A DNA stretch of 52,690 nt. Origin: a virus. Both the position numbers and the translations under genes were made by a program. Under the pieces are notes generated by a model, which worked only from the letters and a program-made list of their open reading frames with translations, did no database searches and was not told the DNA's origin. The first letter of the stretch is position 1, and each line of letters begins with the position of its first letter. Where the stretch lies: IMG/VR virus record IMGVR_UViG_3300020020_000040, positions 1-52,690 of that record. One strand, given 5' to 3'. Positions 32,401 through 52,622 of this stretch are shown here, piece by piece.

Positions 32401-32591
32401 TGATCCGGTTCCTCTTGATCTTCCGAGTCGGATCTCGCGTCGGTTCGATCGGCAATGGTTTTTTCAATGTAGGTAATCCGTTCATTAATCCTGTCTGCGA
32501 ATCGTCGAACGAGATCCTCGGTACTGATGTCGAGGAGTTCGAGGATGTCGACCTCATCATACTGGAGTAGTTCGGTCAGGATCGTTGGCAC
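32397..32591 (-). CDS. Small acidic hypothetical protein
   Basis: This 64-aa protein with a GTG start has a helical ELLQYDEVDILELLDISTEDLVRRF segment that recurs in small phage proteins of unknown function, and a very acidic tail. It overlaps its neighbours by 35 nt upstream and 4 nt downstream into nrdA. Confidence 0.7.
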   Translation of the reverse strand: MPTILTELLQYDEVDILELLDISTEDLVRRFADRINERITYIEKTIADRTDARSDSEDQEEPDQ

Positions 32592-35147: not shown

Positions 35148-35663
35148 TTACTCCGACTTGTTAATGAATGCGACGAACTGTTCTGCGACTTCGAGAACAT
35201 CGTCAATGGTGACGTCGTTGCCCTTGGTGTAGGCAACAGCTTGAGCAAGGCACGACTGACGAACGATATTGTTCTGAGTCTTGGCACGTTCCTCAGCAGT
35301 GGGGTAGTTGTTACTCACAGTACCGCGGCCAGTAGCAGTAGCAGGACTGCTAGTACGGGCGGCCCCATCAGTGTTAGCAGTGGGCACCACCGCATCGGCA
35401 GCCAGTGCCACCACGTCCCAATAACCGCGGTCATTTTTTTCCATGCGGAGTCCAATATCATCACCTTTCTTAGCAGCTGCGATAGCAGCATAAACATCAG
35501 GATTTGCATACACCTTATACAAAGATTTACTACCAGTCGAGACACGGCCATCTCGGCCAGTGCTCTTATACGTTACTGCAAGGAACTCCAGATCATCGCC
35601 CTTGCCACTCTTATTTGGCTGGGTCTTGGCTTCAACATCAACGATCGTCCAAACGATATTCAT
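35148..35663 (-). CDS. Putative single-stranded DNA-binding protein
   Basis: This 171-aa protein has an OB-fold-like N-terminal 85 residues (IVWTIVDVEAKTQ, DLEFLAVTYKSTG, RGYWDVVALAADA), a low-complexity Thr/Ala linker, and a C-terminal helix block (NNIVRQSCLAQAVAYTKGND). The layout resembles phage SSB-like proteins, and the gene overlaps the polymerase C-terminal gene by 4 nt. The acidic C-terminal tip typical of SSBs is short (NKSE), so the call is tentative. Confidence 0.55.
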   Translation of the reverse strand: MNIVWTIVDVEAKTQPNKSGKGDDLEFLAVTYKSTGRDGRVSTGSKSLYKVYANPDVYAAIAAAKKGDDIGLRMEKNDRGYWDVVALAADAVVPTANTDGAARTSSPATATGRGTVSNNYPTAEERAKTQNNIVRQSCLAQAVAYTKGNDVTIDDVLEVAEQFVAFINKSE

Positions 35664-36421
35664 TTATTCAATGACTCCATTTCTAAAAGATTACGTCCGA
35701 CCTTTACCTCACCGGGGAAAGGGATAGACATTGTGTACCCGAAGAGTCTCTCTGCTTCGGAAGGGATGCGGTCAAACTCTTCAAGCATAATCTGACCAAC
35801 TGCTTGCGGATCTTTCGAATCAACAACGATTGAATCGTGAACAGTGATAACCATTTTACCATGAATTTTCTCACGTGTCAAGCGTTTTCGTATGTTGACC
35901 CTAGCGATCGCCATTAGATCATTGCCGGTTCCTTGTATTGGTTTGTTAGTAATCTGTTTGAGATCCCACTTCTCTACGTTCTGTCCCTTCCAGTTCTGGT
36001 AGACATTCTTTTTGAATGGCCACTCCCTACCGGTGAAGACAGTCAGCTTACCGTACCTCTCACAATCCTCCACCCACTGCTGATGTGTCTTATCCAGTCC
36101 GTAATACTTCCGATAGAACTTCTCGATAACATCGTTCCAGAAGTCCTGGTCAGTAGACACATGAGAGAAGTCAGGATCATTAGCGAACCCCCATCCAGTA
36201 CCACGAAAGATCACACGGAAGAGAAAGAACTTAGCAACCCTACGGGTAGGCAGATCGAAAGCTACTCGGTTGAGTTCGTGCGTGTCGTCGCCGTTGAGAA
36301 TCTCTTTGATCCCAACAGGATCCTTAGAAAGTTCAACAGCAAGACGCCACTCCAAACCAGCTGCATCAACGTTGACTAGCATCGTAGCGGGCGAGAGCCG
36401 CGGTTGCAGCGGGAAAGACAC
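35660..36421 (-). CDS. Family A DNA polymerase, C-terminal part (motifs A, B, C)
   Basis: This 253-aa protein carries polymerase motif A (VNVDAAGLEWRLAVEL), motif B (RRVAKFFLFRVIFRGTGWG) and motif C (VHDSIVVD), that is the catalytic palm and fingers. The exonuclease and the upstream TGRLSS motif are in a separate gene at 36812-37927. The GTG start lies inside the end of a 74-aa gene in another frame; ATG 36382 (before LVNVDAAG) is an alternative. Upstream in frame is R-T-C-L then a stop codon. With its partner this would be the replicative polymerase, assembled as two chains or joined by splicing. Confidence 0.85.
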   Translation of the reverse strand: MSFPLQPRLSPATMLVNVDAAGLEWRLAVELSKDPVGIKEILNGDDTHELNRVAFDLPTRRVAKFFLFRVIFRGTGWGFANDPDFSHVSTDQDFWNDVIEKFYRKYYGLDKTHQQWVEDCERYGKLTVFTGREWPFKKNVYQNWKGQNVEKWDLKQITNKPIQGTGNDLMAIARVNIRKRLTREKIHGKMVITVHDSIVVDSKDPQAVGQIMLEEFDRIPSEAERLFGYTMSIPFPGEVKVGRNLLEMESLNK

Positions 36422-36590: not shown

Positions 36591-36819
36591 CACCACCCTT
36601 CCATCGTTTCATTGATTCCTTGCGCAGATTTTTATTCAGTAAAATCTTTTCAGCCGCGACCTTAAGTGCTGCATCAGGGAAGTTCTTCAGTGCCTTGATC
36701 TCTTTATCCCGATCAGCTACTTCTACTGTCAGTCGATTGATCAGGTACCTCTGATCCTTGATAGTCTGTTGCAACTTCTCAAAGGTATCTCGCCTGATTG
36801 TGGTTAGCTCATCACTCAT
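36580..36819 (-). CDS. Coiled-coil protein inside the split polymerase, first of two
   Basis: This 79-aa protein is an almost continuous coiled coil (TIRRDTFEKLQQTIKDQRYL, LTVEVADRDKEIKALKNF) with a basic C-terminal end. Its ATG overlaps the stop of the polymerase N-terminal gene (ATGAGTGA), so translation is coupled. It carries a 15-bp palindrome. A bridging role between the two polymerase halves is a speculation worth testing. Confidence 0.6.
   Translation of the reverse strand: MSDELTTIRRDTFEKLQQTIKDQRYLINRLTVEVADRDKEIKALKNFPDAALKVAAEKILLNKNLRKESMKRWKGGDDE
36630..36644. repeat. 15-bp palindrome inside the coiled-coil gene
   Basis: TTTTATTCAGTAAAA is identical to the copy at 34140 and again encodes L-L-N-K. 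Confidence 0.6.
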
Positions 36820-37927
36820 ACCTGCTTATGCAGCATAGCTGTGCTGTCTCCGATAGGTTCTGACAGTTAGGTCCATTGGAACTCAGCCTGCCTGTGTCAG
36901 TGACACACAGGTTGAAGTTCGTATAGATATACTCATGGCCATAGCCACCAACATCTTGCTTGTTAGGTAGCCCTTCTAGGTAAGTGTTGATCTCTTTCTG
37001 TAGAGCACGGATCTGTTTAAGATCAGCGATGAGTTCATCACCACCCAGCTTAGATAGAGTGTCGTCGTCAGTAGACCATCTACCTCCAGGAGTCCTGGCA
37101 ATAGGCTCATATCTTCGAGGAAACTGTACATCATACTCCTCCCACTGGAACTTAACCTGTCCTGCCTTAGCACCAGTCTTGTAGTGACCTATCGGTACCT
37201 GTCGCTTCCGCTTAATCGATCCACCAAAGAGTAAAGCAGCAAGCTGATCCGGAGAACCCCAATTGAAATCAGGTATCCCGTGCACAGCAAAATGCTTATC
37301 AAATAATCCTTGAACCTTGGTCTTTGCTTCCGCAGCGAGAGCCAGGCTTTTCGCACGATCATATCGAATCCCATTACGTTCCATTTCAAACAGAACGAGT
37401 ATGTCCTCGCATCCCAATTCGAACAGAGGCATCTGTCGTTCAGGTACGATGTCCATATCGAAGAGCTTCCTGGTAAGGACCACGTCTTGATGCAGATATT
37501 CCATCAGCTTATCAAGCGGTACCTCACTGGTCAGCTTACCCTTGTTCCAGTATTCTTCCTTCACGAAATCCAGCTTACGTTCGCTGAGATATCGGAAGGC
37601 CATGTCATCTAGGCTAGGGTAGGGATTGGTCATCCCGTTAACAAGGAAGTCTGCGTACTGCAGGTCATAGATCTTGACCCCGGAAATGTCAATGCCTATG
37701 TTGACTAGCCAGTGCATGTCGAACTTAGCATTGAACAAGACCATCAGGTCACAGGCATACACACACTCCTGAAGGATCCGTAGTTCATCAGCAGATGGGG
37801 TGACTGTGAAGATAGGACCATCACCGATCTGATAACCGACCGCAATAACAAAGTTGCGTGGGTCTGTCCACGCCCCTCTGTTATGCGACTCAGTCTCTAT
37901 GTCAAGGGTTAGGACCGTTCTGTCCAT
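36812..37927 (-). CDS. Family A DNA polymerase, N-terminal part (exonuclease and thumb)
   Basis: This 371-aa protein has the 3'-5' exonuclease motifs (LTLDIETESHN, LMVLFNAKFDMHWL, YLHQDVVLTRKLF), then a thumb region, and reaches TDTGRLSSNGPNCQNL, the palm motif that normally runs into motif A about 20-30 residues later. Instead it ends with 13 unrelated residues and a stop. The rest of the polymerase is encoded 390 nt downstream. It retains proofreading residues and must pair with the downstream gene to be a polymerase. Confidence 0.88.
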   Translation of the reverse strand: MDRTVLTLDIETESHNRGAWTDPRNFVIAVGYQIGDGPIFTVTPSADELRILQECVYACDLMVLFNAKFDMHWLVNIGIDISGVKIYDLQYADFLVNGMTNPYPSLDDMAFRYLSERKLDFVKEEYWNKGKLTSEVPLDKLMEYLHQDVVLTRKLFDMDIVPERQMPLFELGCEDILVLFEMERNGIRYDRAKSLALAAEAKTKVQGLFDKHFAVHGIPDFNWGSPDQLAALLFGGSIKRKRQVPIGHYKTGAKAGQVKFQWEEYDVQFPRRYEPIARTPGGRWSTDDDTLSKLGGDELIADLKQIRALQKEINTYLEGLPNKQDVGGYGHEYIYTNFNLCVTDTGRLSSNGPNCQNLSETAQLCCISRYE

Positions 37928-40054: not shown

Positions 40055-40609
40055 TTACATAACTTTACAGTGAACCTTGTCTGTGAACGTACAGACTGTG
40101 TCATTGACGTGGTTCCATGTCATACAGTAGTCATACATTGTAGGATTTACACGGTGTAATCCTCTCGGCTGGTTGCGCATGTCCAGACGCATCTGTACCT
40201 GGGTTCCACCGAACCAGTCCAGGTTAACAGTACCTTCCTCTATGAACCCATACACCGCGAACAGCCGGTCTAATGGGGGCACAGTCGTTATCATCACACT
40301 CTCTTGGTGTGTGTACAGGGCAGTCAAGAAAGCCGCCTTAAACAGTGCCTGACGGGCTGCAAACGCCTCTCTCCTGTTGCCAGTGACAGCCAACCGTTCA
40401 AACATACACTCATCACCCAGTACCACACGGATAGATGCACCTACCCTACCGTAATCGTCCTTCGTGTAGTATAGTGCAGTATTCTCAGCCTCATCTATAT
40501 CCTCTAATTCTATGACCATTGGTCTGTTGTGGTGAGAATAAGCCTTCTTGCGTAGTTCAACGACCCGACTGCGGTCCTCGCTGGTTACTGCAAGATGGAC
40601 TTTGTTCAC
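40055..40609 (-). CDS. GNAT/FeeM-like N-acyltransferase
   Basis: This 184-aa protein has the plan of the acyl-homoserine-lactone/N-acyl-amino-acid synthase branch of GNAT enzymes: VVELRKKAYSHH at the N-terminus, DEAENTALYYTKDDYGRVGASIRVVLGD, ERLAVTGNRRE followed by a long helix, then PPLDRLFAVYGFIEEG. Such enzymes transfer acyl groups from acyl-ACP or acyl-CoA to amines. GTG 40609 overlaps the stop of the barrel gene, with AGGTGG 8 nt upstream. The coupling suggests that this enzyme and the barrel work together, perhaps in envelope modification. Confidence 0.65.
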   Translation of the reverse strand: MNKVHLAVTSEDRSRVVELRKKAYSHHNRPMVIELEDIDEAENTALYYTKDDYGRVGASIRVVLGDECMFERLAVTGNRREAFAARQALFKAAFLTALYTHQESVMITTVPPLDRLFAVYGFIEEGTVNLDWFGGTQVQMRLDMRNQPRGLHRVNPTMYDYCMTWNHVNDTVCTFTDKVHCKVM

Positions 40610-41112
40610 CAGAAACGCCACCTAAGTTGCACTGCCACCATCGGATCGTTACCACCGACCTTGATTGGTTGAGCAAGCAACACCAGTTCAGCACGCCACA
40701 TATTGACAATGAACTCCGGTGCCACGATGGGCATCACAATACTCTTGTAACCTGTAGCGCCGCCAACCGCCAGCCCGAGTTGGAATGGTCCTACGCGACC
40801 GGTCTTCCACTCTTTCGCAATGTACAGGCTCTGCTTGTCATGACTGTTCCGATAGGTACCGAACATCATACCATACAACGGACCCTCATCCACCCGGATA
40901 CCAAACCCGACGTTGTTCTGTACGTATGGTTTGCCAGTGGTCGAACTGATATCACTGCCGTAGTGCTGTGACAGGAAGCCACTCATGAAGGTGATGTTGG
41001 CACCTGCTGCCTTCGACTCACCGCACCATGCGATTGCATAGACAGCAAGGAAGATAATCAGGACATACATAAAGATCTTACCAGGCCGAGGATTAACATC
41101 ACGCTTGTTCAT
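40606..41112 (-). CDS. PagP-like outer-membrane beta-barrel
   Basis: This 168-aa protein has an N-terminal hydrophobic export segment (residues ~12-29) and then an 8-strand-barrel-like sequence ending in an aromatic residue (RWRFW). It parallels PagP lipid A palmitoyltransferase: SQHYG, NVGFGIRVDEGPLYGMMF, YRNSHDKQ, GPFQLGLAVGGATGYK, a Pro-containing strand VMPIVAPEF. PagP needs His33, Asp76 and Ser77; here H50 and S90 remain while Asp is N89. It may acylate lipid A or act as a non-enzymatic barrel. Homology is judged from pattern only. Confidence 0.6.
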   Translation of the reverse strand: MNKRDVNPRPGKIFMYVLIIFLAVYAIAWCGESKAAGANITFMSGFLSQHYGSDISSTTGKPYVQNNVGFGIRVDEGPLYGMMFGTYRNSHDKQSLYIAKEWKTGRVGPFQLGLAVGGATGYKSIVMPIVAPEFIVNMWRAELVLLAQPIKVGGNDPMVAVQLRWRFW

Positions 41113-42621: not shown

Positions 42622-43680
42622 TTACTTCACCACCGAATACGTAATTGGGATCGTTTGGCACTTAGCCACTTTGATTGTATCAGGAACAAAGGTGTCTGTC
42701 ATATCTTCCAATGGGTCATGTTCACAATCACCAAGAAGAACTAGTTCTCGTCTAGCATTGATTCGATCAAATATATCAATCTCCAACCACGTACCCAAAT
42801 CCCTTTTCAAGATGCCTACTGTACCACGGTGAAGACCAGCTACCACAAAGAACAATTTGTAGGTATTACTCTTAAGAGAGAACGAATTTAGTGAAGATAG
42901 GAACGTTAGGACAACAGAATGTAGCGTCGAGCCAGACACCACATCAGAGATTTTACTCGGTAAAACAAAATCAATCTTTAGCTCAGTGGTTGATTCTGGT
43001 TCTTTATAGTCAAAGGCATCAAACGAAACATCAGCCTGAGGAGCAGTGTTAAATTGACTCTGACCAATGGTAAACATTGGCTGACTACCACCATACCAAG
43101 CACTCTCAATCGTCTTGACCTCCGTCGTCTTTACTGCTGGCTTGGTGGCCGGAGAGACTATGTAGTTAAGCTGCTCCTCAAAGAATCCCTTGACATGCGT
43201 CTTTTTACCGGCACTCTGTAGTTTACCATACAGACTGTAGATCGCATCCCCGGCAGCACTACTCAATCTACGGGTACTACCATCAGAGTACACAACTACT
43301 AGATCTACCCCAGGACTGCCGATCGGTACGTGATTCTTCCTTGCACGAAGACGTGTAATATCAAGCAGGCTGTAAACCTTCAGGATACTACCTGGAACAA
43401 CCATCCCCAGTTCATGAGTCAGACTGTTAGGACCAGTTCCATAACTATCAATGGATTGTTCCGGATTGAAGATGCACGAACCGTTAGGTCTTACCAGTCT
43501 CCTGCTTCCATTGGTGAACGTGACAAGATGGTACACATACAGCTGACTATAGCTTCCGAGAATGTCGCCTAGAAGAAACGCCTGATCGTCAGAAAGGAAG
43601 ATATGCCTGTGATGTGGATGAGCACCTTGGCTCGTAGGAAAGAGACCATTGATATGTACATCAACAACAGTCGGGTCCAT
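42622..43680 (-). CDS. Hypothetical protein, larger paralogue
   Basis: This 352-aa protein of unknown family has an early His-rich HPHHRHIFLSDDQ, two similar hairpins YHLVTFTNGSRRLV (50-63) and VVVYSDGSTRRL (128-139), HELGMVVPGSILKVYSLLD (89-107) shared with the downstream paralogue, and a C-terminal TYKLFFVVAGLHRGTVGILK (273-292) followed by GTWL. It is beta-rich, without membrane segments. A KOW-like or SH3-like fold is an inference. It contains a 15-bp palindrome. Confidence 0.75.
   Translation of the reverse strand: MDPTVVDVHINGLFPTSQGAHPHHRHIFLSDDQAFLLGDILGSYSQLYVYHLVTFTNGSRRLVRPNGSCIFNPEQSIDSYGTGPNSLTHELGMVVPGSILKVYSLLDITRLRARKNHVPIGSPGVDLVVVYSDGSTRRLSSAAGDAIYSLYGKLQSAGKKTHVKGFFEEQLNYIVSPATKPAVKTTEVKTIESAWYGGSQPMFTIGQSQFNTAPQADVSFDAFDYKEPESTTELKIDFVLPSKISDVVSGSTLHSVVLTFLSSLNSFSLKSNTYKLFFVVAGLHRGTVGILKRDLGTWLEIDIFDRINARRELVLLGDCEHDPLEDMTDTFVPDTIKVAKCQTIPITYSVVK
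42951..42965. repeat. 15-bp palindrome inside the 352-aa gene
   Basis: TTTTACTCGGTAAAA matches the family exactly and encodes V-L-P-S-K on the minus strand. Confidence 0.6.
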
Positions 43681-43682
43681 AC

Positions 43683-43856
43683 TTATTCCTCATCGCCTAG
43701 CTGATACCGCAGGTCATCACGTTCTTGTACACTGACCTCCTCCTGAATAGGCTTGAAGTCAGCTTCACACAATTGGACATAGCCCAACTTAGGGTCGGCA
43801 TAGCGACGGGTATTCTCGAAGTCGTTAAGCCTCTTATTGCAAGCGAGACAGCGCAT
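43683..43856 (-). CDS. Small Cys-containing protein
   Basis: This 57-aa protein begins MRCLACNKRLNDFEN and has a third Cys in VQLCEADF, suggesting a small zinc-binding knuckle, and an acidic tail. A TTG start 12 nt upstream is an alternative, since it is nearer to AAGGA. It lies between two unknown genes of the leftward operon. Confidence 0.6.
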   Translation of the reverse strand: MRCLACNKRLNDFENTRRYADPKLGYVQLCEADFKPIQEEVSVQERDDLRYQLGDEE

Positions 43857-43860
43857 CTGA

Positions 43861-44550
43861 TTAAGCAAATTCCTTTAGGGCGATAACCAGCTTCGACTTG
43901 CTGGATTTCTTGAATTGAGACACGAAGCCGGTGTAGTTATGCATCGTGCTAATGTCCAGTGCTTGAAGTACAGGACTGCCGATCAGCATGTCCGGATCCT
44001 CAATCTTGGACCAATGGTTCAGCAATTGATCGATCACATTCTTACCAACACTCAGGATGTAGGTATCCTCAGGGGAATAGCTGTCACCATTCTCCATGAG
44101 TTTCTCAAACGAGGTAGCCTTCTTCACACAGCACAGCTTGAGCATGAACGTGAAGAAACTGATCTTCCACGGGGCGTCCATTGCTTCATCGTCCCACTTT
44201 ACAATGGCTTGACTGCCATCGTTACCGACGAACTCAATACCGGTAATGTAGTTCTCAATGTTGTACTTAAGGGCATCAATCGATCCCATGTCCAGCTTAA
44301 GAGCCATGTATGGGCTCTTGACATGATGGGATTGGTGCTTATACCCATAGATGCCTTGGTTTGTGTCGGTCTTGCCCTTGCTGTTGTTATAGATCATCCA
44401 CAGGAAATCAGGCAGAAAGTCACGGCACTTGACATACGAGTGCTGCAACTGGAAGCCATCTTCCGTCTTGACTGCCCATGCAAACAGGACGTTCAGTGAT
44501 TGGCCGATCTCAGCGTAAGAGGCGGGGACTTTGGGGGCGGCGATATTCAT
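43861..44550 (-). CDS. Hypothetical protein beside the ligase cluster
   Basis: This 229-aa protein has AAGGAATACAC before its ATG. It has mixed alpha/beta composition, several aromatic pairs (FLPDFLWMIYNNS) and no known motif. It lies directly downstream of the ATP-grasp gene in the same operon. Its basic, Ser/Lys-rich end (FKKSSKSKLVIALKEF) could bind nucleic acid. Function not assigned. Confidence 0.72.
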   Translation of the reverse strand: MNIAAPKVPASYAEIGQSLNVLFAWAVKTEDGFQLQHSYVKCRDFLPDFLWMIYNNSKGKTDTNQGIYGYKHQSHHVKSPYMALKLDMGSIDALKYNIENYITGIEFVGNDGSQAIVKWDDEAMDAPWKISFFTFMLKLCCVKKATSFEKLMENGDSYSPEDTYILSVGKNVIDQLLNHWSKIEDPDMLIGSPVLQALDISTMHNYTGFVSQFKKSSKSKLVIALKEFA

Positions 44551-44559
44551 GTGTATTCC

Positions 44560-45303
44560 TTACTTAACAATAACAGATTTAAAGGTGTTCACGAAGTAGT
44601 CAGCAGTGGAATCCACCATACCAGGCGCACTGTTGATTTCCAGTACATACGCCTTATTGTAGTGCTTATTCCACACAATGTCAATAGCACCGAAGTCCAT
44701 ATCAAACGCTTGTGCTACCTTGGCAGCAGTCTCAACAACGACAGGACTCAACTCATGGTTGACACTACCGTACACATACCCATTGTCCAGATTCTGAATT
44801 TTTGAGTGCGACTCTCCAGTTTTCTTCAGTTTCTGTTTAATCAGACTGCTGGAAGCACCTTTTACCCAGTAAACTCGATATTCACGGGCTTTCTTGATGT
44901 ACTGAGTATACAACGGAACGTTGTGCAAGTCAACAGCATTATTTGCAAGGATAATACCCTTGCCGCTGTGACTATTCAGCAATGCCCTACCGACTACCAG
45001 ATACCCTTCCGAGAGCCATTCGAGGGCGACATTCTTGTCCGTTGTCCAAGGAGGAACGCAGTCCCCGAGACCTGCCTTGGTGATTTGCTGGAAGAACTCC
45101 AATTTGTTGCCGATCGGATTGGCATTGAGGATCTTTGCCACGGGGAATTCTGGAATAGACGCACTGCCCCAATTGATAATGACATCAGTTGCCTTTGGTT
45201 TGTATTTGGAATTGGTGTGTTTAATCAGCTTCCCGCCAATCTTCGTGGCAAGCAGCTTAGCCGACTCACTTGACGGCTTATATGGATAAACAAAGATCCT
45301 CAC
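44560..45303 (-). CDS. ATP-grasp ligase
   Basis: This 247-aa protein has ATP-grasp features: GYLVVGRALLNSHSGKGIIL (phosphate-binding loop), EYRVYWVKGASSSLIKQKLKK, and the metal-binding DFGAIDIVW...YVLEINSAPGM. Enzymes of this fold join a carboxylate to an amine through an acyl-phosphate. GTG 45303 overlaps the stop of the amidotransferase gene (GTGA), with GGAGG 4 nt upstream. It is probably a peptide- or amino-acid-ligating member of the amidoligase cluster. Confidence 0.85.
   Translation of the reverse strand: MRIFVYPYKPSSESAKLLATKIGGKLIKHTNSKYKPKATDVIINWGSASIPEFPVAKILNANPIGNKLEFFQQITKAGLGDCVPPWTTDKNVALEWLSEGYLVVGRALLNSHSGKGIILANNAVDLHNVPLYTQYIKKAREYRVYWVKGASSSLIKQKLKKTGESHSKIQNLDNGYVYGSVNHELSPVVVETAAKVAQAFDMDFGAIDIVWNKHYNKAYVLEINSAPGMVDSTADYFVNTFKSVIVK
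44860..44874. repeat. Near-match of the 15-bp palindrome
   Basis: TTTTACCCAGTAAAC has one mismatch (last base). It lies inside the ATP-grasp gene. Confidence 0.4.
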
Positions 45304-46613
45304 GCATCCTCCGTAACAGTACCAACAAATTCTTCCTGACATGCCTGACAGATCAGGCCATGGACTGTCTTGTTGATACCAGTCCGAATAGCCAGATACT
45401 CACCATGAAAATCTTGATGCATCATGGAATCACAAACAGCACAGTTATCCAGAACAAGGCTAACCAGTTCTGACTTCGTGACTTCCGATCCACATCCCAG
45501 ATACAACTTCTTATCCGGCTCTTTGAGATCAGTTACATCAACGGGTTCTAATTTCCAATAAGAGTTTTTCTCGATTTGGTACTCAACAAACTGCTTTCCA
45601 TCCCTCATGATGGTCTGGGGTGGTGACTGCAACATGCCCTCAAACGCATCAGTATCCCAATTCGGAATTTTCCAATCTGTAACGATTGACATGAGTTCGT
45701 GGCGATCTGTTATTCCTGAATACTTGTACCTTCCTCCCGGAAACGTCGTCTCCTCGATAAGAGAGAAAACGCAAAACATGTCGTCATTGGCTTGCCCTCC
45801 TTTCTTATTCTTCCCCCTGATCTTCGGAAGATGCTTGACCTTCCTTCCGTAAGGACCATCACTATCCTTAGTACCCTTCGTATAATGATAGTAGGTAGTG
45901 GTCTTGGGCTTTGGGTTTTTGATAACCGTTTCCCCCTCCATCAAAACAGAGGATTTGCCATCAAGAATGTAATGCGTATCTTCCTTCAACTCGTACAGCG
46001 TGTATCGCTTCGGATCGAACGTCTTGAACTGTCGAGGTAGGATCCAATCCATCATCGCAATTTCACTGGCCCAGAAGAACGTCTTGTCATACTCGACAAT
46101 AGAAAACGGGCGTTCTTTGTTGGCGAAGAAGTTCAGACTCTTTTCGTTGTCATCCCACCACACACAAGCATATGCACCATGGATGTCTGCAAACGCCTTG
46201 ACTCCCTTCGCAGCAACCTCACTGGTCAGCCAGTCACTGTCCACACTGAATTCAAGCGGGAAGTTATTGGTCAACGTGCCGTTATGGGCCATGGTAATGT
46301 GCCCACGAGTAAACGGATGGGCATTAGCACCCGTAACTCCACCCTTGGTAGCAGCACGATGATGGCCGATGATGGTGGCAGCATCCTTGTCCATGCTTGT
46401 TTTGAACGTCTGCCAGATACCACTACCAAACAGTTGCCACGGGGCACCCGCGGTCTTGATTGCCCTTAGATTAGCACCATCCTTGTCAACCGCTACGATA
46501 CCAGTGCCATCCATACCACGGACAACTCCAGCGAGCATCATGTTGTACATGACATTAAGCTCGGTAAAGGTCAGTGCCGCCGTAGGTCGATGAAGCCCAA
46601 AATGTCCACACAT
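45300..46613 (-). CDS. Class II glutamine amidotransferase
   Basis: This 437-aa protein starts MCGHFG, giving the N-terminal nucleophile Cys2 after Met removal, and has GHHRAATKGGVTGANAHPF and MAHNGTLTNN, the glutamine-binding loops of Ntn-type GATases. The C-terminal 90 residues hold CAVCDSM and CQACQEEF, a probable zinc ribbon. No asparagine-synthase domain is fused. It would release ammonia or transfer the glutamine amide for a partner ligase in the same operon. Confidence 0.87.
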   Translation of the reverse strand: MCGHFGLHRPTAALTFTELNVMYNMMLAGVVRGMDGTGIVAVDKDGANLRAIKTAGAPWQLFGSGIWQTFKTSMDKDAATIIGHHRAATKGGVTGANAHPFTRGHITMAHNGTLTNNFPLEFSVDSDWLTSEVAAKGVKAFADIHGAYACVWWDDNEKSLNFFANKERPFSIVEYDKTFFWASEIAMMDWILPRQFKTFDPKRYTLYELKEDTHYILDGKSSVLMEGETVIKNPKPKTTTYYHYTKGTKDSDGPYGRKVKHLPKIRGKNKKGGQANDDMFCVFSLIEETTFPGGRYKYSGITDRHELMSIVTDWKIPNWDTDAFEGMLQSPPQTIMRDGKQFVEYQIEKNSYWKLEPVDVTDLKEPDKKLYLGCGSEVTKSELVSLVLDNCAVCDSMMHQDFHGEYLAIRTGINKTVHGLICQACQEEFVGTVTEDA

Positions 46614-46626
46614 TCGGTTTTATTCC

Positions 46627-47502
46627 TTAAAACAGGTCAGAAATGAAGTGCTTTGCAGCCAGAATCATCAAACGAGTTTCCGACCTTGTAAGTTCATCGG
46701 CTCCAGGAAGGGCAGTACCAAAAGCATCCGAGATAAATCCCGAATAGTTCTTGGTCATCGATACATCTTCCAGATTCCGAATGTGTTGACGCAAGGGCGT
46801 CTTTTCCGCATACGTATGCAATGCAGCAATGGCATTCATCCACGCACGGAGATCATCAATACTCTTGGTCCCAGGATGATGCCTGAATTCAAGCGTACCA
46901 TAATCCCGCAGATGGTAGAAATTCAACCCGCAGTATTTGAACTTCTTAAGCGAGTCACCACTGCAAATCGTCTTCTTGTCCAGCAAGTGGATGTTCGCTC
47001 CACTGCCAACAATAGGGAAACAATATGCATTGTTATGCCGCTTCCCTTCACCGACGAAGTTAAAATACAACTTCTCCGATGCGATATAGGCCGAGATCAG
47101 GACGATCAATTGCTCGATCGACAGATCATTGACACCCATATGCACATGGATACTGCACCGATGAGAAAAGACAGAGTTGGCGTTGACAGTAAAGATATAC
47201 TCCAATTCTTCGAACGCTTTCCCAAACTGCGTTCCACGAATCGGCCTGCTGATATACTCCATCCCTGAATCTTTCAGCGATCCATCACCCTCAGCATTCC
47301 ACAAAGGCATTTGGACATCACTCACCTGACACTTTTCCAATTCCACTTCCACACCGAAGCTGGTCGTAGAATCAACACCTGCGGGTGCTCCGGCGGGCGG
47401 AAATAGTTTGTTGTGTGAGATGAAGTCCGTGACGATTGGGGCCTCACTCAGCCCGTAGTACCCTAGAACCGTGTGATCGAGATATTGCAAGACGCCAGAC
47501 AT
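46627..47502 (-). CDS. Amidoligase-family enzyme (PF12224-like)
   Basis: This 291-aa protein has the glutamine-synthetase-fold motifs of amidoligases: FGVEVELE (49-56), GDGSLKDSGMEYISRP, HRCSIHVHMGVNDL, RHNNAYC and YGTLEFRHHPGTKS. These give the Glu, His and Arg residues for ATP and metal binding. Family members are predicted to form amide bonds between amino acids or peptides. The start has GAGG 7 nt upstream and overlaps the previous gene by 40 nt. Confidence 0.85.
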   Translation of the reverse strand: MSGVLQYLDHTVLGYYGLSEAPIVTDFISHNKLFPPAGAPAGVDSTTSFGVEVELEKCQVSDVQMPLWNAEGDGSLKDSGMEYISRPIRGTQFGKAFEELEYIFTVNANSVFSHRCSIHVHMGVNDLSIEQLIVLISAYIASEKLYFNFVGEGKRHNNAYCFPIVGSGANIHLLDKKTICSGDSLKKFKYCGLNFYHLRDYGTLEFRHHPGTKSIDDLRAWMNAIAALHTYAEKTPLRQHIRNLEDVSMTKNYSGFISDAFGTALPGADELTRSETRLMILAAKHFISDLF

Positions 47503-48107
47503 TCGGCAACCTCATGGACGTAATTGGGAAGAACCGTTACCTTGGTCATGGACTTGTTGAACAGCCCAATCACAGAATCAAGAAAGTACAGACGGCCACG
47601 CCAAAAACACATCTCCGGAGAGATCGGGCCGAATGATCCCAAAGCCTTGTCAGTATCATAGACAAGGGAATCAGGAGAGATAAGCTCCCCATCCTCTACA
47701 AACTTCGGGACCACTTTCTGAGCATCCGAAACCTTGATTTGCGGATTCCAGATTTTATACGTCGAATGGCTGACCCCTTGCTGATAAGACTTTATCATTC
47801 GCTTGATGGTAAGTACAGCCTGAATCTGGTCATCCTGAAACTTGAACTTTTCATGAGTCAGGAGAGGCCAGTATACGGGCGGCAGTTGGATATAGACAGG
47901 ATGAAGATCGTCATAGGAAACGACGTCACCATCAATCCATCCATTAGGCCCCTGACCAGTAACCCTCATCGAATCCTCACCAACCTTGGTGATATAGAGT
48001 TGATAGTGTTTCCCGGTCTTTGTATCAACGCACGGAACCCAGGATTGATGGAACCGGAGTTGATATGCCTCCGAGTTCCATTCCTTCTGATATAGTAGTT
48101 TCTTCAT
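47463..48107 (-). CDS. Unknown protein embedded in the amidoligase cluster
   Basis: This 214-aa protein is rich in Tyr, Trp and Pro (VYIQLPPVYWPLL) with charged helices; no motif recognised. It overlaps both amidoligase genes (4 nt upstream, 40 nt downstream), so it is almost certainly part of the same pathway, perhaps as a substrate carrier or partner. Confidence 0.75.
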   Translation of the reverse strand: MKKLLYQKEWNSEAYQLRFHQSWVPCVDTKTGKHYQLYITKVGEDSMRVTGQGPNGWIDGDVVSYDDLHPVYIQLPPVYWPLLTHEKFKFQDDQIQAVLTIKRMIKSYQQGVSHSTYKIWNPQIKVSDAQKVVPKFVEDGELISPDSLVYDTDKALGSFGPISPEMCFWRGRLYFLDSVIGLFNKSMTKVTVLPNYVHEVAECLASCNISITRF

Positions 48108-48922
48108 ACTTTCTCAAGAACAGCCGAATACACAGAGTCATACTGATTCGTCATGTTGTCACGAATCAAAGTCAGAATATCGATATTCTCGATAGTTGCC
48201 ATGGCACCAGTCGGCATGGCTTCGAAGAAACTGGCGGTTTGTTCCAGAATCTCGTCATAGGCACTGAGATTGTCCACGACATCGGTGACAACGCCATAGA
48301 CTTCCCGCATCAGTTGCTCGCTGGTCAGCCAGATGTTGCTTGGCACACGATACTCGACGCCATAAGGCTTCAAGCGACATGCACCAGCATTCCCATACAA
48401 CTCATTCCGACGGTCAGTCGGGTTGAGCATGGCCAAGGGAACACCAAGCATCAGATCCAGCACCCGAACCAGCTGCATCTTCTTCGCCAGATTCATCTGT
48501 ACGCCGATGTGGATATGACCACCAGCAGTGCGAAGATTGGTAGATGTGGCCGACGGGGCAGGATTCGGTTCCAACAGCCAAGCATTGAAGTCAGGATTGC
48601 AGCCAAACGTCTGCGCACCTTCCGTCTTCAACTCGCTGTCCGGGAACTCCAGAGCACTGACAATCCCAACATGCAGACCGTTCGGATTGGCGATCTTGTT
48701 GCGAACAAAATCCAACGCCTTGGTGTGGTTCGCAATCCACGCCTCGACATTGCTAGCCGGTGGGATGTTGAACTCCACCGTCACATTATCTTCGAGGTAG
48801 GCATAGTTGCCCTGCTTCAAGGGATTTTCTTTCGTCCCACCCACCAGTCCGACAGCCGATACAGGCTGGTCTGACGAATTGAGTAGGAACACTTCAGGGT
48901 CCGAACCAAGCAGAATCTTCAT
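48104..48922 (-). CDS. COOH-NH2 ligase-type protein (PF14395-like)
   Basis: This 272-aa protein has GSDPEVFL (6-13), DNVTVEFNIPP, GGHIHIGV (134-141) and RRNELYGNAGACRLKPYGVEYRVPS, the pattern of the second phage amidoligase type, also of the glutamine-synthetase fold. It would activate a carboxylate with ATP. ATG follows a 15-bp palindrome by 4 nt. Together with the other amidoligase it implies two successive amide-bond steps. Confidence 0.85.
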   Translation of the reverse strand: MKILLGSDPEVFLLNSSDQPVSAVGLVGGTKENPLKQGNYAYLEDNVTVEFNIPPASNVEAWIANHTKALDFVRNKIANPNGLHVGIVSALEFPDSELKTEGAQTFGCNPDFNAWLLEPNPAPSATSTNLRTAGGHIHIGVQMNLAKKMQLVRVLDLMLGVPLAMLNPTDRRNELYGNAGACRLKPYGVEYRVPSNIWLTSEQLMREVYGVVTDVVDNLSAYDEILEQTASFFEAMPTGAMATIENIDILTLIRDNMTNQYDSVYSAVLEKV

Positions 48923-48926
48923 ACTG

Positions 48927-48941
48927 TTTTATCCAGTAAAA
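48927..48941. promoter_or_regulatory. 15-bp palindrome before the amidoligase cluster
   Basis: TTTTATCCAGTAAAA matches the family exactly. It fills the gap between the C26 gene and the ligase gene, 4 nt from the start codon; on the minus strand its centre holds GGA, which could serve as the Shine-Dalgarno. Confidence 0.7.
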
Positions 48942-48945
48942 CGGT

Positions 48946-49581
48946 TTAGAGAATGAAACGATCGACGAGACTTTTGGTCAACTGACCCATGGGTGACGCC
49001 GGATTGCCGTACTCAGGATGATATTGCATCATCAGAGCACGAACGCGATCCTGCTCAAGAAAAGCAACTTCGACTTCAGGACGCTTGGTCTTTTCCTCGC
49101 CTTCAGCCGTCACATAGATATTGCTCAACGGCTCTTTCGATACCGCAATCACTTCCATCTTGTCCGATGGTTTCATCATTTGATGATGCGACGATGAAAC
49201 GCTGACAACGGAACCCTCTGCATATTCTTTGCAGATGTCCCGTGTCAGTACGATCGGATGATTGCCGTGACCATGCCCAGAGATATGCTGATACAGCGTA
49301 CCTCCAAGCATTGCACACAACAATTGCGCACCACGACAGACTCCAATCATGGGAATCTTCTTCGTGATGCATTCTTCGATCAGGGCACATTCGAAAATGT
49401 CCCTTGCTCGGTCTTGCTCTTGGCAAGCGACATTCTCATGTCCGTAGATTCCCGGATTGATGTCACTACCGCCCCAGAATACCAGGGCTTCGGGCTTGGT
49501 GTCCCTCAAATCCCTGATAGACCGGATGGTGGCCGAGTTCAGACCGAAATACTTGATTTGATAGAGTACCGATCCAATCAC
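48946..49581 (-). CDS. Class I GATase-like gamma-glutamyl hydrolase (peptidase C26)
   Basis: This 211-aa protein has the nucleophile elbow IGVCRGAQLL (C82), an oxyanion-side GGSDINP, and the catalytic pair H188 and E190 in YHPEYG. It resembles PuuD-type hydrolases, which cleave gamma-glutamyl bonds. In the cluster it could process or release gamma-glutamyl intermediates made by the ligases. It overlaps the next upstream gene by 4 nt. Confidence 0.85.
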   Translation of the reverse strand: MIGSVLYQIKYFGLNSATIRSIRDLRDTKPEALVFWGGSDINPGIYGHENVACQEQDRARDIFECALIEECITKKIPMIGVCRGAQLLCAMLGGTLYQHISGHGHGNHPIVLTRDICKEYAEGSVVSVSSSHHQMMKPSDKMEVIAVSKEPLSNIYVTAEGEEKTKRPEVEVAFLEQDRVRALMMQYHPEYGNPASPMGQLTKSLVDRFIL

Positions 49582-49790
49582 GAGATGTCCTTCGGCGTGT
49601 GAAACAGTTGCTTGATGTGGCCTTTGACGGTTTGGAACTCGTCACCAGTCATGAAGCGACCGATCTTGTAGGCCACATACTTCGGGCCATGCTCGAATCG
49701 CGTGTGGTTGTCGTATCCATCACCAACGAACACATCAACCGTTTTCCGATCGACCGTGCAGAAGTGGAACTCACCGATTTGATATTTCAT
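49578..49790 (-). CDS. Small hypothetical protein upstream of the C26 gene
   Basis: This 70-aa protein (MKYQIGEFHFCTVDRKTVDVF..., ending HTPKDIS) overlaps the C26 gene by 4 nt. It is beta-strand-like with a Tyr/His-rich middle. Its coupling to the cluster makes it a candidate substrate or accessory, but nothing in the sequence proves this. Confidence 0.65.
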   Translation of the reverse strand: MKYQIGEFHFCTVDRKTVDVFVGDGYDNHTRFEHGPKYVAYKIGRFMTGDEFQTVKGHIKQLFHTPKDIS

Positions 49791-49952: not shown

Positions 49953-49953
49953 G

Positions 49954-49968
49954 TTTTATCCTGTAAAA
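49954..49968. promoter_or_regulatory. 15-bp palindrome one base before a GTG start
   Basis: TTTTATCCTGTAAAA matches the family exactly. It lies at the start of the 50-aa gene and overlaps its ribosome-binding site. Confidence 0.7.
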
Positions 49969-50002
49969 TCCTCTAACACGCTTCATCGGGTGATAAAGCA
50001 CT

Positions 50003-50830: not shown

Positions 50831-50841
50831 TCTGTACTCCG

Positions 50842-50856
50842 TTTTATCGGATAAAA
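50842..50856. promoter_or_regulatory. 15-bp palindrome at a gene junction
   Basis: TTTTATCGGATAAAA matches the family exactly. It contains the TAA of the 27-aa peptide gene and lies 11 nt before the lipoprotein start. Confidence 0.7.
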
Positions 50857-50927
50857 TACGCGGAGATGAGGACTGCAACAGACATCAACACGCTCACACG
50901 AAACACACAACGCTGTAGTACAGTCAC
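50844..50927 (-). CDS. 27-aa hydrophobic peptide
   Basis: A GTG start overlaps the TGA of the upstream gene (GTGA). After a short basic start the peptide is one membrane helix (VSVLMSVAVLISAYF) and stops inside the 15-bp palindrome. Its compact placement supports a real gene, but no homologue is known and the size makes the call tentative. Confidence 0.4.
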   Translation of the reverse strand: MTVLQRCVFRVSVLMSVAVLISAYFIR

Positions 50928-51254: not shown

Positions 51255-51276
51255 GATATTTAAATCCTTGGGGTTG

Positions 51277-51291
51277 TTTTATCGAGTAAAA
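51277..51291. promoter_or_regulatory. 15-bp palindrome at a gene junction
   Basis: TTTTATCGAGTAAAA matches the family exactly. It contains the TAA of the 56-aa membrane protein and lies 22 nt before the next start codon. Confidence 0.7.
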
Positions 51292-51449
51292 CGGTCCGGC
51301 TCGCACCGATACACAGACTCGGCAATACGGAACTGGCCATTGCCATCACAACCAGCAATAACATGCTTCGCAACAGTGAAAACACCGGCGACGAACATAG
51401 TTCCGCCGACAATCACTGCAACAATGAACATAACAGCCGAGGTATTCAT
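51279..51449 (-). CDS. Small early membrane protein, one helix
   Basis: This 56-aa protein has one transmembrane segment (AVMFIVAVIVGGTMFVAGVF, residues ~5-24) and a Cys-containing tail. ATG 51449 shares its first base with the end of a 15-bp palindrome, so the start is fixed by position; a longer reading would need to run through the palindrome. Unknown function. Confidence 0.62.
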   Translation of the reverse strand: MNTSAVMFIVAVIVGGTMFVAGVFTVAKHVIAGCDGNGQFRIAESVYRCEPDRFTR

Positions 51450-51463
51450 TTTATCCAATAAAA
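51449..51463. promoter_or_regulatory. 15-bp palindrome abutting an ATG
   Basis: TTTTATCCAATAAAA matches the family exactly. On the minus strand it reads into the ATG of the 56-aa gene, and its TTGGAT is the only Shine-Dalgarno candidate. Confidence 0.7.
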
Positions 51464-51483
51464 CTGTTTGAGAAACTTGCCAG

Positions 51484-52091: not shown

Positions 52092-52107
52092 TTTACGTTC
52101 CTTTCAG

Positions 52108-52122
52108 TTTTACCGGATAAAA
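52108..52122. promoter_or_regulatory. 15-bp palindrome upstream of the 184-aa gene
   Basis: TTTTACCGGATAAAA matches the family exactly, 16 nt from the GTG start. Flanking CCGG lengthens the symmetry on one side. Confidence 0.7.
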
Positions 52123-52221
52123 CCGGCGGAGTTTGTGTGGTACGATGCAAGACGCATCTTTCCCACGAGCCCTATCTTACCATGCCCATGTTGCTGCAAT
52201 GTGTCAAACAGGTAAGACTTT

Positions 52222-52542: not shown

Positions 52543-52605
52543 AAATCGGGGGCAGAATCCAATGATATTACACTATGGACACTGCAAGGAGGATAGTATT
52601 GTAAG

Positions 52606-52620
52606 TTTTACTGGATAAAA
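52606..52620. promoter_or_regulatory. 15-bp palindrome upstream of the whole leftward arm
   Basis: TTTTACTGGATAAAA matches the family exactly. It lies 64 nt before the first leftward gene, in the region that should hold the early promoter; no consensus promoter was found next to it. Confidence 0.7.
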
Positions 52621-52622
52621 TA

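Follow-up and report, generated by a model that had tools for sequence, protein, structure and literature searches.

What does a phage make with three ligases, a glutamine amidotransferase and a gamma-glutamyl hydrolase encoded side by side? The question is raised by six genes on the minus strand of IMG/VR virus record IMGVR_UViG_3300020020_000040, one linear record of 52,690 bases (G+C 48.6%) that was analysed whole and is called the window below. A previous annotation made from the letters alone (the sequence-only reading) had described an amide-bond-forming cluster of six overlapping genes, akin to clusters of phiEco32-like phages; earlier accounts of the podovirus amidoligase cassette are reportedly those of Iyer 2009 and Hardies 2013. 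We find that the window cassette is an ordinary member of this known, widespread and biochemically unstudied system, and consider that it probably directs a non-ribosomal pathway of gamma-glutamyl ligation and trimming, leading to a small gamma-glutamyl peptide or amide. New here are the place of the 214-residue protein within the cassette, the alternation of C26 hydrolase and gamma-glutamyl cyclotransferase (GGCT) among phage cassettes, and a confident model of a COOH-NH2 ligase of glutamine synthetase (GS)/GCS type.

All six genes, running from 49581 to 44560 in the order C26, COOH-NH2 ligase, 214-residue protein, Amidoligase_2, class II glutamine amidotransferase (GATase II) and ATP-grasp, are open frames at the places first proposed, and the five enzymes match the families first named (Table 1), and against PHROG three of them, the ATP-grasp, GATase II and COOH-NH2 ligase proteins, reach 1e-57 to 1e-65. 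The genes are tightly packed, as had been said, but not all overlap: as first called, they are separated by gaps of 23 and 13 nucleotides and share overlaps of 4, 40 and 43 nucleotides.

Table 1. Cassette genes and conserved neighbours in the window, in window coordinates
Feature	Coordinates	Strand	Basis
C26-type gamma-glutamyl hydrolase, class I GATase fold	48946..49581	-	PF07722 E=3e-23
PF14395 COOH-NH2 ligase, predicted GS/GCS fold	48104..48922	-	PF14395 E=3.9e-15, AlphaFold2 model
214-residue cassette protein (UNK), predicted N-terminal small beta-barrel	47463..48107	-	custom HMM, AlphaFold2 model
Amidoligase_2	46627..47502	-	PF12224 E=1.2e-7
Class II glutamine amidotransferase, GFAT-like glutaminase domain	45300..46613	-	PF13522 (GATase_6) E=6.6e-12
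RimK-like ATP-grasp ligase, 247 residues from GTG	44560..45303	-	PF08443 E=2.8e-4; PHROG_2599 E=6.6e-58
229-residue protein, optional neighbour 3' of ATP-grasp gene	43861..44550	-	17 homologous frames, mostly same slot
61-residue zinc-ribbon protein, acidic tail, between ATP-grasp and primase genes	43683..43868	-	62 homologous frames
70-residue protein upstream of C26, 4-nucleotide overlap	49578..49790	-	55 homologous frames

Conservation of the cassette and of gamma-glutamyl cleavage

Hidden Markov models (HMMs) seeded from annotated phages and the window were run over some 175 loci taken from IMG/VR and phage records; 47 remained once loci had been dereplicated by their COOH-NH2 ligase (70% identity) and only complete ones, with 6 kb or more on each side, were kept. 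Both amidoligases, the GATase II and the ATP-grasp ligase occur together in all 47, and tblastn places each amidoligase in over 300 annotated phage records. Cassettes with a hypothetical protein of about 200 residues between the amidoligases are carried by tf, SU10, LAh_9, QDWS535, Vibrio 1.208.B, Slicky01 and ctOsX528, and the carriers as a whole include lytic phages of Pseudomonas, Escherichia, Vibrio and Aeromonas and the crAss-like Cellulophaga phage phi14:2; three contigs of metagenome-assembled genomes recovered in a genome-contig scan held phage-type cassettes only. Two IMG/VR loci (L028 and L033) have a second Amidoligase_2 gene several kilobases upstream of the cassette.

The podovirus cassette is known from phiEco32, LUZ24, tf and RIO-1 (PMC5498523, PMC3890496), where it goes by the name of “peptidoglycan modification cassette”. 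The window holds this same cassette, as the likeness to phiEco32-like clusters had implied: it has the COOH-NH2 ligase, the protein of about 200 residues, Amidoligase_2, GATase II and ATP-grasp ligase of the LUZ24/tf/phiEco32/RIO-1 version, and shares with tf, UFV-P2, SU10 and LAh_9 both the gene order and a location near replication genes. It differs from the tf-type cassette in having C26 instead of GGCT, and a homologue of the tf_17/tf_18 pair (about 300 residues) was not found in the window. The same set of C26/GATase1, COOH-NH2 ligase, amidoligase, GATase II and ATP-grasp is present in PA11/TC6-like Pseudomonas phages, in QDWS535, which has GGCT too, and in Caudoviricetes ctOsX528, at protein identities to the window of about 25–41%; among isolates, C26-type cassettes are also carried by PA11, TC6 and K4. 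By terminase, the nearest annotated isolate is Alcaligenes phage vB_Af_QDWS535 (47.5% identity over 74%), and an uncultured Manatee Spring phage shows 44% identity over 99%.

A gamma-glutamyl-cleaving enzyme accompanies the four core enzymes in every complete locus: 23 have C26 only, 18 GGCT only, six both and none neither. The GGCT gene lies in the flanks in 15 of the GGCT-only loci and farther off in the same genome in the other three. When whole records were searched with Pfam, none of the 23 C26-only records contained a GGCT, none of the 18 GGCT-only records a C26, and the window had no PF06094 match anywhere. A Fisher test for exclusion of one family by the other gives p=3.7e-8; because the loci compared are related to one another, we do not put this value forward as proof, and it is safer to say that no complete cassette lacks a gamma-glutamyl-cleaving enzyme. 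Judged by profile matches, the window C26 replaces the GGCT of most described cassettes, a substitution that the sequence-only reading did not notice, and since C26 stands in place of GGCT in 23 of the 47 relatives, we treat GGCT as non-defining for the cassette.

A parallel exists in cellular genomes, where a 2008 analysis described an amidoligase/C26 pair in proteobacteria, with an Aig2 gamma-glutamyl cyclotransferase instead in firmicutes, and concluded that cellular amidoligases serve to make glutathione-like peptides and not to conjugate proteins (PMC2588565). In our sample of 398 Pseudomonadota genomes, 24 carried PF12224, and a same-strand C26 gene adjoined it at 14 of 21 chromosomal loci; Pfam confirmed four of the pairs, and at two of the 14 the frame caller had merged both genes into overlapping frames. 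The closest-studied pair has lexA and SIMPL neighbours. Like the phage cassette, the Amidoligase_2/C26 pairs of Pseudomonadota and the Aig2-linked pairs of Firmicutes join an amidoligase to a gamma-glutamyl-cleaving enzyme, whereas the COOH-NH2 ligase, 214-residue protein, GATase II and ATP-grasp ligase were not detected within flanks of about 1.5 kb. As far as family assignments go, the phage cassette repeats the C26/GGCT alternation of cellular amidoligase loci.

Predicted folds and catalytic residues

The sequence-only reading had called both amidoligases glutamine-synthetase-fold enzymes. For the COOH-NH2 ligase, an AlphaFold2 model built from 68 homologues has a mean predicted local distance difference test score (pLDDT) of 92 and a predicted template modelling score (pTM) of 0.90, and over 210–246 residues it matches solved structures of E. 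coli YbdK (Z 15.6), plant glutamate-cysteine ligase (14.8), Dop (14.7), PafA (14.4) and glutamine synthetases (13–14). On the strength of these matches the claim holds for the PF14395 family, whose predicted structure can be assigned with confidence as a GS/GCS-fold ligase over the whole domain. This is the fold of carboxylate-amine ligases that act on glutamate (YbdK, glutamate-cysteine ligase, GS, Dop/PafA) and so supports gamma-glutamyl ligation. The corresponding assignment for Amidoligase_2 comes from its Pfam match and published work, and should be read as a family-level prediction; sequence profiles of the PF14395 and PF12224 families found no credible solved relative, and comparison of the two profiles gave weak similarity.

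In alignments that include distant homologues, the expected residues of the enzymes are invariant: motifs DxE, HxH and ExR in the COOH-NH2 ligase; GxExE, DGS, HxH and EFR in Amidoligase_2; C2, R86, T89, H99, N111, G112 and D125 in the GATase II; D221, E235 and N237 (numbered from the ATG at 45342) in the ATP-grasp ligase; and, among 16 phage and bacterial homologues, the triad Cys82, His188 and Glu190 with the HxQ motif (H132, Q134) in C26. The catalytic roles of these residues are established knowledge of the families. Missing catalytic residues, which had been named as grounds for giving up the cluster, are therefore not what these proteins display.

Each remaining enzyme can be placed in a family and set apart from its best-characterised members. 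C26 scores 83 bits against a PF07722 cut-off of 20.5 and, on triad and profile score, classifies as a Peptidase C26/gamma-glutamyl hydrolase. Its closest match in the PDB is PuuD (6vtv, E=1.3e-6), with Lin1909 also matched, and its nearest NCBIfam models are gamma-glutamyl-CDP-amidate hydrolase and PuuD, both scoring far below their cut-offs (36.9 bits against 266 for the PuuD equivalog). The GATase II classifies as a class II glutamine amidotransferase by its N-terminal Cys and glutamine-site residues; it is not GFAT/GlmS (GlmS 39.7 bits against a cut-off of 418, with the match confined to residues 32–118), and beyond the glutaminase domain it has a Cys-rich C-terminal tail and no recognised synthase domain. 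The ATP-grasp profile retrieves RimK structures first (E ~1e-9) and falls below the NCBIfam rimK_fam cut-off (22.8 against 143.4 bits), which identifies a ligase that is, by profile, RimK-like and not RimK. Its gene most likely starts at the GTG at 45303 rather than at the ATG at 45342 first proposed, as indicated by a GGAGG Shine-Dalgarno sequence, a GTGA overlap with the GATase II stop, and the alignment.

The 214-residue protein, which has no Pfam or PHROG match, had been proposed as a partner or modified substrate. Direct tblastn and exact-motif searches were empty, and relatives were reached only by syntenic seeding; the resulting HMM, whose seeds include the window protein and whose scores persist after iteration on relatives, found the family in 39 of the 47 loci, normally between the two amidoligases, and matched the window protein in the same slot (E=4.5e-17). 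Among the other eight loci, three have a frame of 185–252 residues in the right slot and five are rearranged and contain no such protein, an order also seen in phi14:2. Since the rearranged cassettes retain all the enzymes, the protein is not an obligate substrate; its homologues show it to be neither an orphan nor an unknown peculiar to the window, but a standard part of the cassette in the podovirus lineage. An AlphaFold2 model (pLDDT 82) predicts an N-terminal small beta-barrel, with weak matches to Sm/Tudor-like barrels among solved structures (best Z 5.5; Foldseek E 0.03 or worse), no sequence relative in the PDB and no recognisable catalytic motif. In the BFVD viral library the model retrieved other phage proteins that equal it in size, one of them from Salinivibrio phage CW02, which is listed among cassette-bearing phages (PMC5498523).

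A probable gamma-glutamyl pathway and its alternatives

We favour a gamma-glutamyl pathway, encoded alongside the replication genes, because of the conservation of the cassette, the constancy of C26 or GGCT, the fold of the ligase, the nearness of C26 to PuuD and of the ATP-grasp protein to RimK glutamate ligases, and the cellular amidoligase/C26 parallel. The GS-fold COOH-NH2 ligase would take glutamate, either free or within a peptide, convert its gamma-carboxylate to an acyl phosphate and join it to an amine; Amidoligase_2 and the RimK-like ATP-grasp ligase would each form one further amide bond; the GATase II would hydrolyse glutamine to provide ammonia for a terminal amide; and C26, or GGCT in other phages, would remove or recycle gamma-glutamyl groups. 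We infer every substrate in this scheme, as well as the order of steps, the amine used, the destination of the ammonia and the purpose. Ligation of a gamma-glutamyl group followed by its removal by C26 or GGCT is the logic of the Puu pathway (PuuA/PuuD) and of butirosin synthesis (BtrJ/BtrG). Their amine-processing enzymes, carrier protein and dehydrogenases were not recognised in the window cassette, and the likeness is one of analogy only.

Several points weigh against this reading. The role of the 214-residue protein is left without explanation; Dop and PafA share the fold of the COOH-NH2 ligase, so that protein substrates are conceivable; and C26 and GGCT labels cluster on the ligase tree, with two changes in the complete set and seven when incomplete loci are added, so that the alternation is not statistically independent. 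None of the papers found within the library covered contains a biochemical or genetic test of the cassette. Most likely the product is nonetheless a small gamma-glutamyl peptide or amide, be it a free metabolite or a modified cell-wall peptide, and not a tagged protein. More tentatively, a gamma-glutamyl product not yet described may benefit several hundred phages of very different families, with C26 and GGCT interchangeable and the 214-residue protein acting as a podovirus-lineage scaffold.

Gamma-glutamyl links occur in peptidoglycan, and a product-specific form of the same pathway, possible but doubtful in our judgement, would give the infected cell altered peptidoglycan side chains, which would block superinfection. 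This view is already published (Iyer 2009 and Hardies 2013, summarised in PMC5498523; also PMC10580990), and an envelope theme is suggested by a gene on the same strand (40606–41112) for a 168-residue protein that is likely a phage-encoded outer-membrane beta-barrel and possibly serves superinfection exclusion. It has a hydrophobic N-terminal segment, an aromatic C-terminus (QLRWRFW) and a match to PHROG_3600 'PagP' (E=7e-16), and no match in annotated phages. Against the cell-wall version, a cell-wall gene was recognised neither in the cassette nor beside the chromosomal amidoligase/C26 pairs examined, and the literature searched yielded no experiment on either side.

That the cassette tags proteins seems to us unlikely. 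In this view a host or phage protein would receive glutamate or peptides from the RimK-like and PafA-like enzymes, and the 214-residue protein would be the adaptor or the target. The ATP-grasp ligase is closest to RimK, the GS-fold ligase also matches Dop and PafA, and the 214-residue protein is conserved and devoid of a recognisable catalytic motif, all of which would suit such a role; yet a universally conserved small Pup-like protein was not seen, the rearranged cassettes dispense with the 214-residue protein while keeping every enzyme, and protein conjugation has been argued against for the cellular relatives (PMC2588565). Less probable again is that nucleotide synthesis is fed with ammonia and glutamate which GATase II, C26 and GGCT release from host pools, an idea mentioned for RIO-1-like phages (PMC5498523) and in keeping with co-location with ribonucleotide reductase, ThyX and replication genes, since the three ATP-consuming ligases, the invariant part of the cassette, would not be needed. 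Hypermodification of DNA bases with amino-acid or amide groups, which the position among DNA metabolism genes might suggest, is scarcely credible because five common restriction enzymes cleave the DNA of tf, itself a phage with the cassette (HaeIII, and RsaI, HpaI, EcoRV and SmaI, whose fragments were cloned; PMC3517423), and modification genes are absent from the window, whose thymidylate synthase is a plain ThyX and which has no PurZ and hence no sign of a 2-aminoadenine genome.

Surroundings of the cassette

The plus strand carries terminase, portal and capsid genes up to about 28 kb, and the minus strand ribonucleotide reductase, a split DNA polymerase A, a DnaB-like helicase, ThyX, a primase fragment, the cassette and many small genes; in gene order the cassette sits 5' of the primase, ThyX, DnaB and PolA genes. 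DNA polymerase A is divided over 35660–36421 and 36812–37927 (minus strand), with about 390 bases between the frames, and a minus-strand gene at 32557–33027 matches PF18909 (dATP/dGTP diphosphohydrolase), its best PHROG label being endolysin. PADLOC identified no anti-phage defence system in the window, the sole hit being a marginal Cas8 model match (E=0.003).

Two small proteins had also been put forward as substrates, and neither gains support. The 70-residue protein comes from a genuine small phage gene that is conserved, mostly 0–2 kb upstream of C26 in C26-type cassettes and usually not adjacent; the 50-residue protein ending in Cys has no relative in any of the roughly 175 loci. The 61-residue zinc-ribbon protein, with an MRCxxCN motif, neighbours the primase gene and probably belongs to the replication block; it was considered as a LysW-like carrier and rejected, being conserved beside the primase gene and not seen in most GGCT-type cassettes.

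The palindrome GTTTTA-N5-TAAAAC occurs at ten window sites with at most one mismatch (0.03 expected), including 42950–42966, 46617–46633, 48926–48942, 49953–49969, 50841–50857, 51276–51292, 51448–51464, 52107–52123 and 52605–52621. The sites lie mostly just upstream of minus-strand genes, those for the COOH-NH2 ligase and GATase II included; repeated copies were seen in none of the other loci compared, and RNA folding was not notable. The palindrome is possibly an operator or promoter-linked element of this phage.

In every complete cassette a gamma-glutamyl-cleaving enzyme from one or other of two unrelated families is present, and this constancy narrows the search for the product to gamma-glutamyl chemistry.

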